DNA of 64,000 nucleotides from Bdellovibrio bacteriovorus (GTDB taxonomy: Bacteria; Bdellovibrionota; Bdellovibrionia; Bdellovibrionales; Bdellovibrionaceae), in contig NZ_CP020946.1 of assembly GCF_002208115.1 (NCBI RefSeq), positions 1,984,001 to 2,048,000 of the forward strand, read 5' to 3'. The notes beneath the pieces are model-generated. The model was not told where the DNA came from and did no database searches. It saw nothing but the letters and a program-made list of their open reading frames with translations. The position numbers were made by a program, and so were the translations under genes. Each line of letters begins with the position of its first letter. Positions within the stretch are counted from its first letter, which is position 1. Below are positions 44,440-48,219 of the stretch, piece after piece.

Positions 44440-44499
44440 CATTTTGGGTTGGCTTGATGATTGCAAACTCCTTCGATTGTCCAAATTGGAGGAGGAAAC

Positions 44500-46113
44500 A
44501 TGCACTTTAAACCACTAATCGGAGCCATTGTGACTCTGATAATCGGAGTCACTGCTTCTGCAGCTCCGACCGAGAAGACCCAAGACCTGCTGACCCGCAC
44601 ATCTGACACCGCACTGACTGTTCGCGGTGAACTTTCCAAAAACGTCTATCGCCAGGAACCTTATCAGGACAATTACACCGAGAAAGTTCCCTATCAGGCT
44701 GAAGAAACCTATTATGTAGACGTTCCTTATCAGACCACTGAGACCTACTACGAACAGGTTCCTTACACGGAGCGTGTTTCCTATACCGACTATGAGGAAT
44801 ACTGGGACTCTGAATACCAGTGTCGCAACGTCACTAAATATCGTCAGGAATGTTCCAACGAAAGACTGTGTGAGCCTGGTGGCCGCACCTGCCAACCGAT
44901 CACGGAGTGTGGCACCAACGCCCGCGGCGAGCGCATCTGCAAAACCCGCAACGAATGCACCGACGGACCTCGTGTTTGCCGTGATGTTCCTTCCTGCCGT
45001 CAGGTTCCATACACCGACCGTGAATGCGGATACGAGCGCGTTCGCAAAACTCGCACGGTGACCAAATGGCGTGATGAAGTTCGCTATCGCCAAGAACAGC
45101 GCACTCGCACCGTGACCAAGTACCGTTCCGAGGCCCGCACCCGCACTGTCACCAAGTACCGTGACGAAGTTCGCTGCTGCGTGACTCGTTACCGTGATGT
45201 GTTTGATCATCAGTACACTCAACCAGTGGCTGTGATCTTCCCTCAGGAAGCAGCTTTGCTGGCAGGCGAAAAAGAAACCGTTCAGGTTGTTCTGCGTGGC
45301 ACTGAAGCAGCTCCGGAAGTTCAGATTAAAGTGAACTCTTCGATCTTTGCCTACGAGATTGCTGAAGTTCGTCAGGATGGTCGTGAAAAAGTCTTCGTTC
45401 TTAAAACATCCCCGAAATGGAACGAAACCAACGCCGGAACAAAAACCGTTGTTGGCCTGAAATTGCAGTTCAATAAAGGTCAGGGACAGATTCTGTTCAC
45501 AGAAACCGTGGCCGCTCCTCGTGTGACTTCCGTGTATACTTTGGAAGTTCGCGATCAGCAAAGCCAGGCCGTGTTGTTTGAACAGCGCCTGCAATCCACC
45601 GAAGCCAAGGCTTTTGCAGTGGCAGCTCCGGGCCTGGCTCGTGAAGGCAAGTACACGGTGCAACTGCATGTTGAACGCCATGGCGCCAACATTGCGTCGG
45701 GCGCATTGAGCTTTGACCAGACCGTCAGCTACGAGAAAAAAGAGCTGGATCAGGACGAGGTTCAGTCTTTGAAGAGTTCTGCCCTGGTTCAACTGGTTCG
45801 CATTGATGGAGCGGGCGCCGAACGCGTGGTGATCATCCGCGATCAGACCGCCGCTTTGGAAGAGGTTCAGTCCCAGTACAAACTGGTTGTGTGGAAAAAG
45901 CTTTCCAGCGGCAAACTTGAATGGCTGGCGGAAAAGAACTTCACTCGTGAAGCCATCACTTTGGCCAATGGCGAGCTGGGCATTGCCCTGAAAGCCATCC
46001 CGGTGAATCCGGCGGCAGGCACGAAGCTTTACATGGACCTTGTGGTTCGTCGTGACAGCGCTCAGTACCTGGGTTCTCAAAAAGTTCAATTTATCGTGAA
46101 TAAAACCTTCTAA
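44500..46113 (+). CDS. Secreted Cys-rich protein with PY and RTRTVTKYR repeats
   Basis: A 537-residue protein with a signal peptide (IGAIVTLIIGVTASA). Three parts follow: a Tyr-rich region with repeated PYQ/PYT units (VPYQAEETYYVD, VPYQTTETYYEQ, VPYTERVSYTDY); a Cys-rich centre (12 or so Cys, ERLCEPGGRTCQP, ECGTNARGERICK); and a run of basic repeats RTVTKWRDEVRYR, RTVTKYRSEAR, RTVTKYRDEVR. The last 300 residues are a beta-rich C-terminal domain. Strong ribosome binding site (TTGGAGGAGGAAAC) and terminator. I recognise no family; a surface or matrix role is likely. Confidence 0.75.
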   Translation: MHFKPLIGAIVTLIIGVTASAAPTEKTQDLLTRTSDTALTVRGELSKNVYRQEPYQDNYTEKVPYQAEETYYVDVPYQTTETYYEQVPYTERVSYTDYEEYWDSEYQCRNVTKYRQECSNERLCEPGGRTCQPITECGTNARGERICKTRNECTDGPRVCRDVPSCRQVPYTDRECGYERVRKTRTVTKWRDEVRYRQEQRTRTVTKYRSEARTRTVTKYRDEVRCCVTRYRDVFDHQYTQPVAVIFPQEAALLAGEKETVQVVLRGTEAAPEVQIKVNSSIFAYEIAEVRQDGREKVFVLKTSPKWNETNAGTKTVVGLKLQFNKGQGQILFTETVAAPRVTSVYTLEVRDQQSQAVLFEQRLQSTEAKAFAVAAPGLAREGKYTVQLHVERHGANIASGALSFDQTVSYEKKELDQDEVQSLKSSALVQLVRIDGAGAERVVIIRDQTAALEEVQSQYKLVVWKKLSSGKLEWLAEKNFTREAITLANGELGIALKAIPVNPAAGTKLYMDLVVRRDSAQYLGSQKVQFIVNKTF

Positions 46114-46127
46114 CGGTCCTGAAGGTT

Positions 46128-46168
46128 ACGGCCCCGTTCCTCCACCTATGGGAACGGGGCCGTTTTTA
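46128..46168 (+). terminator. Rho-independent terminator
   Basis: ACGGCCCCGTTC pairs with GAACGGGGCCGT (46128-46163), followed by TTTTATTTC. Confidence 0.92.
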
Positions 46169-46656: not shown

Positions 46657-48219
46657 ATGAACAAAAGTGCATTAATCAAAGCTTCAATCTTCGGCGTTAC
46701 AGTTGCGGTGATCCTAAGCCTGATTTCGCTTTTGTTTATGAACCGTTTCATGAATATTCAGGGCGCAAGATTCCGTGATGATTTCCTAAGATTCTATGCT
46801 TCCTCCATCGAACAAAAACTTCACAAAGTTCCACTGGATCAGGTTTCTCGGCAAAAAGACCTGCTGCGCATGGATCGTGATTTCCGTCCGCCAATGGGTC
46901 CACCACCTCCCAACGGTCCGATGATGGGGCCTCCACCACCAATGGGAGGAATGATGCCGCCACCTCCTCCTCCGCGAGGAGATGACCATCGTCCCCGTCC
47001 TCCTTTCAAAGGACCCGGACCGGGGCCTGGTGGTCACCGTCCCCCGCACATGGATATGGACGCCTGGGTTGTGAATTCTCAAGGACAGGTATTGATCTAT
47101 AAGAAATCACCAACTCTGGCCCAAAACTGGGACGAACTGCCGCGCCCGAAAACCAGCAAAGAGATCCTGACAACAGAGAACTTCTTCCGCATTGGCAATC
47201 CAACAATCGTAATCAGATTGGACACCGAGGCCGAACTTTATCTGGTGATCAAAGAACCTGCCCGTCCGATGCTGGGAAATCTGATCATCACTCAGGCTGT
47301 ACTGACGGCGGCGATGATCGTGATTGCCTTGATTCTGGCCATCGCCGCGATCTTTTTCTATATGCGCAAGAAATCCCTGGAAGCCCGCTCGGTCCTGCGC
47401 CGACTGGAAGAGGGCGATCTTAAAGCGCGCTTTGAAATTCACCGTCTGGATGAATTCGGCGGTTTGATGCTGGACTTCAACCGCATGGCCGAAGAAATCG
47501 AAAAACTGGTGGGCCGTATCCACGCCACCGAAAGAACCCGCAAACAATTGCTGCAGGAAATGGGTCATGATCTGCGCACGCCGCTGACCAGTTTAAAAAC
47601 TTCGTTTGAGACCTTGCAGATCCATCACGACAAGCTGTCAGCGGAAAAACGCGGCGAACTGTTTGATGTCCTGATTCGTGAAATTGACTACTTCAAGGAT
47701 CTGATTGAACAACTGATGACCATTGCGTCTTTGGATGAACCGCACTTCAAGGCCAGCACCGAACGCATTGACGTGATGAACCTGTTGACCCAGGAAGTGC
47801 GCCATCGCCAGCACAGCGACACGAAAATCAAATGGAGTCTTGAAGGCGGCACCGTGCCTCCGGTTCTGGGTGACAGCCACCTGATTCAGCGCCTGATCCG
47901 CAACGGTCTTGAAAATGCCGAGCGTTATGCGGACTCCACCGTGGATGTGCGTATTCATGAAGGCACTGATTCATTGACCATTGAGATTTCCGATAACGGA
48001 CAAGGGCTGGATGCCGAAGCCCTCAAGAGCTTCGGTCAGCGCCGCGAATTCCGCGGCAGAAAAATAACCAAGAACGGACACTTCTCTTTGGGACTGGGTT
48101 CTGTGATCATGAAAGCCATCACCGATCTTCACAACGGAACCCTGACAATCGAAAACAATACCACCAACGGTGAAATCAAGGGTGCCACCCTGAAAATCAC
48201 CCTGCCCACTTCCAAATAA
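46657..48219 (+). CDS. Sensor histidine kinase with a Pro/Met/His-rich periplasmic insert, orphan
   Basis: A 520-residue kinase: TM1 (SIFGVTVAVILSLISLLFM), a periplasmic part of about 180 residues, TM2 (AMIVIALILAIAAIFFYM), HAMP, then HisKA with MGHDLRTPLTSLKTSF (phosphorylated His304) and HATPase_c with N-box LIRNGLENAERYAD and G1 DNGQGLD. Residues about 78-133 of the periplasmic part are almost wholly Pro, Met, Gly and His (PPMGPPPPNGPMMGPPPPMG), a composition typical of metal- or copper-binding regions. GAAGGTG precedes the ATG. No response regulator is adjacent. Its target is unknown. Confidence 0.9.
   Translation: MNKSALIKASIFGVTVAVILSLISLLFMNRFMNIQGARFRDDFLRFYASSIEQKLHKVPLDQVSRQKDLLRMDRDFRPPMGPPPPNGPMMGPPPPMGGMMPPPPPPRGDDHRPRPPFKGPGPGPGGHRPPHMDMDAWVVNSQGQVLIYKKSPTLAQNWDELPRPKTSKEILTTENFFRIGNPTIVIRLDTEAELYLVIKEPARPMLGNLIITQAVLTAAMIVIALILAIAAIFFYMRKKSLEARSVLRRLEEGDLKARFEIHRLDEFGGLMLDFNRMAEEIEKLVGRIHATERTRKQLLQEMGHDLRTPLTSLKTSFETLQIHHDKLSAEKRGELFDVLIREIDYFKDLIEQLMTIASLDEPHFKASTERIDVMNLLTQEVRHRQHSDTKIKWSLEGGTVPPVLGDSHLIQRLIRNGLENAERYADSTVDVRIHEGTDSLTIEISDNGQGLDAEALKSFGQRREFRGRKITKNGHFSLGLGSVIMKAITDLHNGTLTIENNTTNGEIKGATLKITLPTSK

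Follow-up and report, generated by a model that had tools for sequence, protein, structure and literature searches.

The window, by which we mean the whole stretch of 64,000 nucleotides analysed here, harbours a real open reading frame on the plus strand that runs from an ATG at 44500 to a stop codon at 46113. It encodes 537 amino acids and is present as a single copy in its own genome (features are given in Table 1). The N-terminal hydrophobic segment of the product ends in ASA-AP and, as judged by eye, carries no lipobox cysteine. It fits a Sec signal peptide, for which we placed the cut using the A-X-A rule, and bears out an earlier note made from the DNA sequence, in which the protein was taken to be secreted. 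No DNA tandem array was found at the gene by Tandem Repeats Finder, so the repeats in the arms of the protein are repeats at the protein level. Relatives that are 24-79% identical to the window protein retain these repeats, and the length of the arms varies in steps of 12 residues, so the repeats do not result from chance.

Table 1. Features of the gene and of the encoded protein
Feature	Residues	Position in window	Strand	Basis or remark
AGGAGG ribosome-binding site		44490..44495	+	Sequence
Probable Sec signal peptide	1-22	44500..44565	+	Cleavage site chosen by eye; signal not of the lipoprotein type
Short segment ahead of the predicted hairpin	23-49	44566..44646	+	Two short strands in the AlphaFold model
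Predicted outgoing strand (acidic Tyr/Pro arm)	50-108	44647..44823	+	12-residue units (VPYQAEETYYVD, VPYQTTETYYEQ, ...)
Cysteine-ladder half of the predicted hairpin	108-176	44821..45027	+	Mirror-spaced Cys
Tip turn CGTNARGERIC	137-147	44908..44940	+	Conserved N..G beta-turn; palindrome centre
Predicted returning strand (basic RTVTKYR arm)	176-226	45025..45177	+	Repeat TRTVTKYRSEAR, 12 aa
Conserved Cys-Cys at base of predicted hairpin	226-227	45175..45180	+	No mirror partner
C-terminal beta-rich region	236-537	45205..46110	+	Model
FnIII/Ig-like beta-sandwich	about 316-417	45445..45750	+	VIA-align Z 10.8, rmsd 2.0, 92 aligned
Intrinsic terminator-like hairpin		46128..46163	+	14 pairs, followed by a T run; strong

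When the flanking genes of 16 neighbourhoods were compared to those of the window, common genes were found only for L031 and L067; one of the neighbours, which resembles a histidine kinase, matches distant kinases too. As the neighbouring genes are not common beyond close Bdellovibrio, the gene appears to stand alone. Downstream of it, a histidine kinase is encoded (46657-48219, plus strand) with a Pro/Met/Gly/His-rich stretch (PPMGPPPPNGPMMGPPPPMGG...) in its predicted sensor part, and this kinase is possibly a metal sensor.

Searches of Pfam, NCBIfam and PHROGs gave no family at a meaningful score for the window protein. Against PDB sequences, the best phmmer match had an E-value of 0.74 and no relative was found, also not with a profile of 31 rows; the protein thus has no known family in these collections, in line with the note, the author of which knew of none like it. 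CopC (PF04234) was rejected as a candidate, its 15.3 and 16.4 bits lying below the curated cut-off of 23.3. Plasmid and viral collections contained no match to the protein.

Arm lengths and cysteine spacing

To compare relatives, the acidic arm was measured from a conserved Tyr-Arg to the first ladder cysteine and the basic arm from the last ladder cysteine to the CC pair. Anchors were set by hand in 36 of 56 family ORFs. Left out were six ORFs at contig ends or with a missing arm (L024, L034, L036, L039, L042 and L063), three of other make-up (L046, L049 and L051) and 11 of the type termed f12. The acidic arm exceeds the basic arm by exactly 8 residues in all 31 measurable rows that are CC-anchored and free of N. 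In 34 of the 36 rows the acidic/basic lengths are 35/27, 47/39, 59/51 or 71/63; the exceptions are L045 (60/51, one extra residue) and L021, which holds a run of N and could not be measured. L040, L041 and L047 fit the same lock with the end of the basic arm set post hoc, at a fixed offset from an FP motif. Among the measured rows, none has one arm a unit longer without the other. A maximum-likelihood tree built from the C-terminal region, with 18 of 32 inner branches well supported, requires no fewer than 12 length changes, a minimum that is equal for both arms. A paired hairpin would require such joint changes by 12 residues at two distant sites.

A second regularity lies in the centre of the protein. 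The ten cysteines found here fall into predicted cross-strand pairs (108/176, 118/166, 124/160, 131/153 and 137/147), each summing to 284, a pattern suggestive of a cross-strand disulfide ladder. Among the 12 ORF products of the window with at least 8 cysteines, this protein alone has at least 80% of them in one mirror register, the others reaching at most 44%. Of the 36 measured rows, two hold the bounding pair only and are uninformative. A complete nested ladder was found in 32 of the remaining 34 rows, which have more than two cysteines, when a slip of one residue was allowed, and in 27 without slip. No such ladder was obtained for L041, the tip of which is very short and which has no mirror pattern, or for L021, which is masked. 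The number of mirror-nested cysteines in relatives ranges from 2 to 18, bounding pair included.

Among distinct cysteine-gap patterns with at least 5 gaps, 23 of 26 are perfect palindromes and the other three are off at one place by one residue. Shuffling the order of the gaps gave p-values of 0.0005-0.07 per pattern. The patterns themselves vary among lineages, for instance 10,6,7,6,10,6,7,6,10 in one, 8,6,8,6,8,6,9,6,10,... in another and 10,9,8,10,9,9,10,9,9,10,8,9,10 in a third. If both strands acquire or shed matching units together, the sequence becomes a palindrome of cysteine spacings. The centre had been labelled 'Cys knot-like' in the note, which is wrong, as the spacing of the cysteines is mirrored on either side of a turn. 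A cystine knot was also rejected as a candidate: we found no fixed six-cysteine framework with a threaded third disulfide, and ten mirror-nested cysteines in the window protein.

The mirror rule was furthermore applied to proteins that had not been used in forming the idea, namely those matched by the profile of the more distant f12 cousins. Of 44 such ORFs 42 were evaluated; the run finder dropped L135, the printed gaps of which look palindromic, and the second ORF of L154. Twenty extra regions had been selected from many f12 matches for long frames or other families. Because the outermost cysteine pair of the f12 type is offset by 1-2 residues, its outermost gaps (11 or 12, and 13) were stripped ahead of the palindrome test. 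Perfect palindromes were found in 37 of the 42 proteins; when each distinct pattern is counted once, 17 of 20 are perfect. Two imperfect patterns have one or two deviations. The third is that of L143, in which 5 of 48 mirrored gaps differ, by 7 residues in sum compared to a shuffle average of 43. The ladders count 30 cysteines in L148, 36 in L147 and 98 in L143. The latter protein (G116:C72:84500-90500) is encoded by an ORF of 1345 residues with 101 cysteines, of which those 98 form the near-palindromic ladder, and has 433 residues per predicted strand. It is possibly the largest such hairpin here; with the usual rise of 3.3 Å per residue, it would be about 145 nm long.

At the middle of the palindrome lies a turn, such as CRNGEC, CNPRGC, CRTVNGRQEC or CGTNARGERIC. 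Glycine is in the middle of all 45 eleven-residue centres, and Asn and Gly together make up 26% of short centres versus 2% of the arms. Many relatives keep CGTNAxGExIC; others have loops of 17-112 residues rich in Gly, Pro, Asp and Arg. In L017, L043, L038, L016, L022 and L057, the tip ladder has partly given way to long loops of low complexity (RPDRPDRPG, HPPPGGG and the like). From its sequence, the tip looks as if it were an exchangeable module.

Repeats of Tyr, Pro, Thr, Val and Cys are also a trait of the YTV-domain proteins (PF07639), which are exported as well. It is conceivable that the window protein is a planctomycete-like cell-wall protein with Tyr/Val repeats, the cysteines of which would link separate molecules to give a wall of protein. 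PF07639 did not match the window protein, L031 or L032 at E-values up to 1, nor ten f12 cousins at E-values up to 0.01; a search of the own genome was silent too, though so were the control genomes. Moreover, mirror spacing implies pairs within one chain. YTV proteins are described as cysteine-rich wall proteins and as confined to Planctomycetales (PMC8567305). Taken together, we regard a YTV-type wall as very unlikely.

We infer that the mirror-spaced cysteines form disulfides. The own genome of the window protein (G000) has several DsbA-like matches and no DsbB family match was found in it; another quinone-linked oxidant, for instance a VKOR-type protein, may serve there. The conserved Cys-Cys 226-227 may form a vicinal or an intermolecular disulfide.

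Inter-arm coupling, strand faces and structure models

APC-corrected mutual information between the arms, computed over 30 rows, is highest at register 0 whichever anchor is used. With the tip as anchor, the coupling is 0.092 at shift 0 compared to 0 ± 0.014, and with the base as anchor 0.097 compared to 0 ± 0.016; none of 20,000 column permutations reached the coupling of register 0. The second-highest value lies at -2 for each of the anchors, followed closely by +2 in the case of the tip anchor, and background is reached beyond about 3-4 residues. The result was unchanged with 25 diverse rows. In addition, prolines of the acidic arm stand opposite an aromatic residue at register 0 in 96 of 108 cases.

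The strands are two-faced. One face is an uncharged strip of T, Y, Q and P. On the other, the acidic strand has 37% D/E, 31% aromatic residues and 23% V/I/L/M, and the basic strand 57% K/R and 20% V/I/L/M. The net charge of the arms is -2 to +6 for 11-38 charges (35 rows), and therefore near neutral. With the arms as opposite strands of one predicted hairpin, the acidic and basic charges neutralise on one face. For directly opposed charges, the expected maximum at register 0 is absent (0.083, versus 0.159 at -2 and 0.176 at +4). As the peaks at -2 and +4 lie on the same face, salt bridges are probably diagonal.

These data bear on the reading put forward in the note, in which the Tyr-rich repeats and the basic ones are distinct parts on either side of a Cys knot-like centre and could serve to cross-link, or to bind polymers of the envelope. 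Tyr/Pro-rich, cysteine-rich and basic repeat regions and a beta-rich domain are indeed present, and the composition of the arms would suit such repeats. They are, however, not three separate regions, as the arms are opposite hairpin strands that are locked in length, coupled residue by residue and balanced in charge. The cysteines nest and vary in number among relatives, with no fixed knot framework. Nothing was found in favour of Tyr cross-linking or polymer binding by the arms, and we consider separate repeats to be improbable in the extreme.

An AlphaFold model from an alignment of three sequences (the window protein, L031 and L032) gave strands at residues 50-139 and 145-235 with a turn at 140-144. 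Its confidence is low (pLDDT 60.6, pTM 0.30). The strand ends sum to 284-285, which is the register of the cysteines. Residues 236-537 modelled alone reached moderate confidence (pLDDT 67, pTM 0.44). An FnIII/Ig-like fold was matched over a whole domain at residues 81-182 of this base model, with several FnIII entries at Z 9.7-10.2; the VIA-align matches listed cover mainly base-model residues 72-181.

For the whole model, Foldseek searches of PDB and BFVD revealed no overall shape match, with TM-scores of at most 0.19. The best matches by E-value were pore proteins with long hairpins, such as CDTb, which could mean that the long hairpin takes part in an oligomeric beta-barrel, as do the stems in pore-forming proteins. 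The TM-scores of those matches are 0.07-0.16. Moreover, neither face is hydrophobic: V/I/L/M make up 3-4% of one and 20-23% of the other, and the latter is 39-73% charged. The one hydrophobic, membrane-facing side of a pore-type barrel stem was thus not found in the face composition, and there is hardly any likelihood of such a stem.

The arm-length lock, the mirror spacing, the register coupling and, at low confidence, the AlphaFold strands all point to a giant two-stranded beta-hairpin, and we hold this architecture to be very probable. The N-terminal half of the exported protein would then be a single antiparallel hairpin with about 90 residues per strand and a length of about 30 nm (3.3 Å per residue). 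Its base-near half would be held by an E/D/Y/V face opposite R/K/V, through salt bridges and Tyr/Arg contacts. The tip-near half would be stapled by the five predicted cross-strand disulfides, with the GTNARGE turn closing the hairpin.

How such hairpins are used is a separate matter. The main rival to a stalk is that they are subunits of a polymer, in which two-faced ribbons stack, either by their faces or by their sides, into an amyloid-like or sheath-like fibre and the lock sets the width of the fibre, not the length of a stalk. A lone two-stranded ribbon exposes both its faces, the uncharged T/Y/Q/P strip and the charged strip seen in 35 rows, and further strands can attach at the edges of a sheet. 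Molecules could be joined through the conserved unpaired CC. However, a proline every 12 residues in one strand and predicted staples within each molecule favour a closed unit, and the Gly/Pro/Asp-rich tips of 40-110 residues in several relatives would hinder stacking. Overall, we regard the polymer as unlikely.

Our best explanation, which we consider probable, is that the exported giant hairpin works as a stalk on an Ig-like base. It would stand on the C-terminal base with its FnIII/Ig-like domain and present the exchangeable tip, and a protease-resistant rod would fix the spacing between this tip and the base. We infer a place in the envelope, either at the cell surface or across the periplasm. 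Taken by itself, the role of a rigid stalk or strut outside the cytoplasm is a tentative, if quite reasonable, assignment.

Known systems and distribution

Cystine-ladder beta-hairpin peptides, namely theta-defensins, tachyplesin and protegrin, have about 18-30 residues and 2-3 parallel cross-strand disulfides. The parallel cross-strand layout would be alike here, but the predicted pairs number 5-49 and the folded base is large. In the alpha-helical coiled-coil hairpins of HlyD-type adaptors and SMC proteins, the arms keep equal length and units change on both. Those are coiled coils with heptads, whereas the protein described here has 12-residue units and predicted beta-strands and disulfides.

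By analogy, the protein would work most like the stalk of bovine ultralong CDR-H3, several times longer and with disulfides in the stalk. The bovine antibodies have a two-stranded beta-ribbon stalk on an immunoglobulin-type domain with a disulfide-rich or exchangeable tip (PMC8602281), a layout also proposed here. There, the whole CDR has 50-70 residues and its disulfides lie in the knob; when the stalk was made two or three times as long, stability and secretion fell (PMC8602281). Unlike in the bovine stalk, strands here have about 90 residues (433 in L143), the predicted disulfides staple the stalk and evolution extends it. The MAT fibres of Bdellovibrio (PMC10769870 and, for the tips, PMC12034629) are likewise fibrous exported proteins with exchangeable tips from the same organism group. 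MAT proteins are trimeric, and nothing in the hairpin protein suggests a trimeric phage-fibre fold.

The hairpin architecture was not found described in open-access literature on giant hairpins, disulfide ladders or zippers and cystine ladders, nor in that on cysteine-rich, disulfide, spike or Tyr-rich repeat proteins of Bdellovibrio, Bacteriovorax or Bdellovibrionota. The small cystine-ladder motif is already known; its fibre-scale version with matched-step growth was not found in the open-access literature searched. Most natural rigid spacers are built as coiled coils, beta-helices, trimeric fibres or chains of Ig domains. If our reading is true, a stapled two-strand rod that can grow by matched steps would add a further way to make a rigid spacer, the beta-strand counterpart of coiled-coil stalks, with 3D contacts that can be read from sequence alone. 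It would make testable how 5 to 49 nested disulfides fold in the correct order and how evolution places matching repeats at two distant sites. For engineering, it would offer a very thin, genetically tunable rod. In predatory bacteria, it hints at an undescribed surface or periplasmic structure.

The homology search within Bdellovibrionota that the note had proposed was run with the single sequence and found relatives in 24 of 59 near genomes and in 52 of 368 genomes of the phylum. The 31-row profile found them in 47 of 368, and the f12 profile, which recovers the window protein at an E-value of 3.4e-10, matched 116 of 368. It is likely that these proteins make up a Bdellovibrionota-wide class of secreted zip-fastener rods, that is beta-ribbons of about 13 to 145 nm with up to 49 disulfides, growth by matched units, a beta-sandwich base and an exchangeable tip. 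Within the genus, 7 of the 23 other genomes (G010-G013, G015, G022 and G023) have no detectable copy, so the gene is not essential genus-wide. Two relatives, L049 and L051 (family code f15), have Trp/His-rich arms, only 5 cysteines and no mirror ladder; these have retained the base domain but combine it with another kind of stalk.
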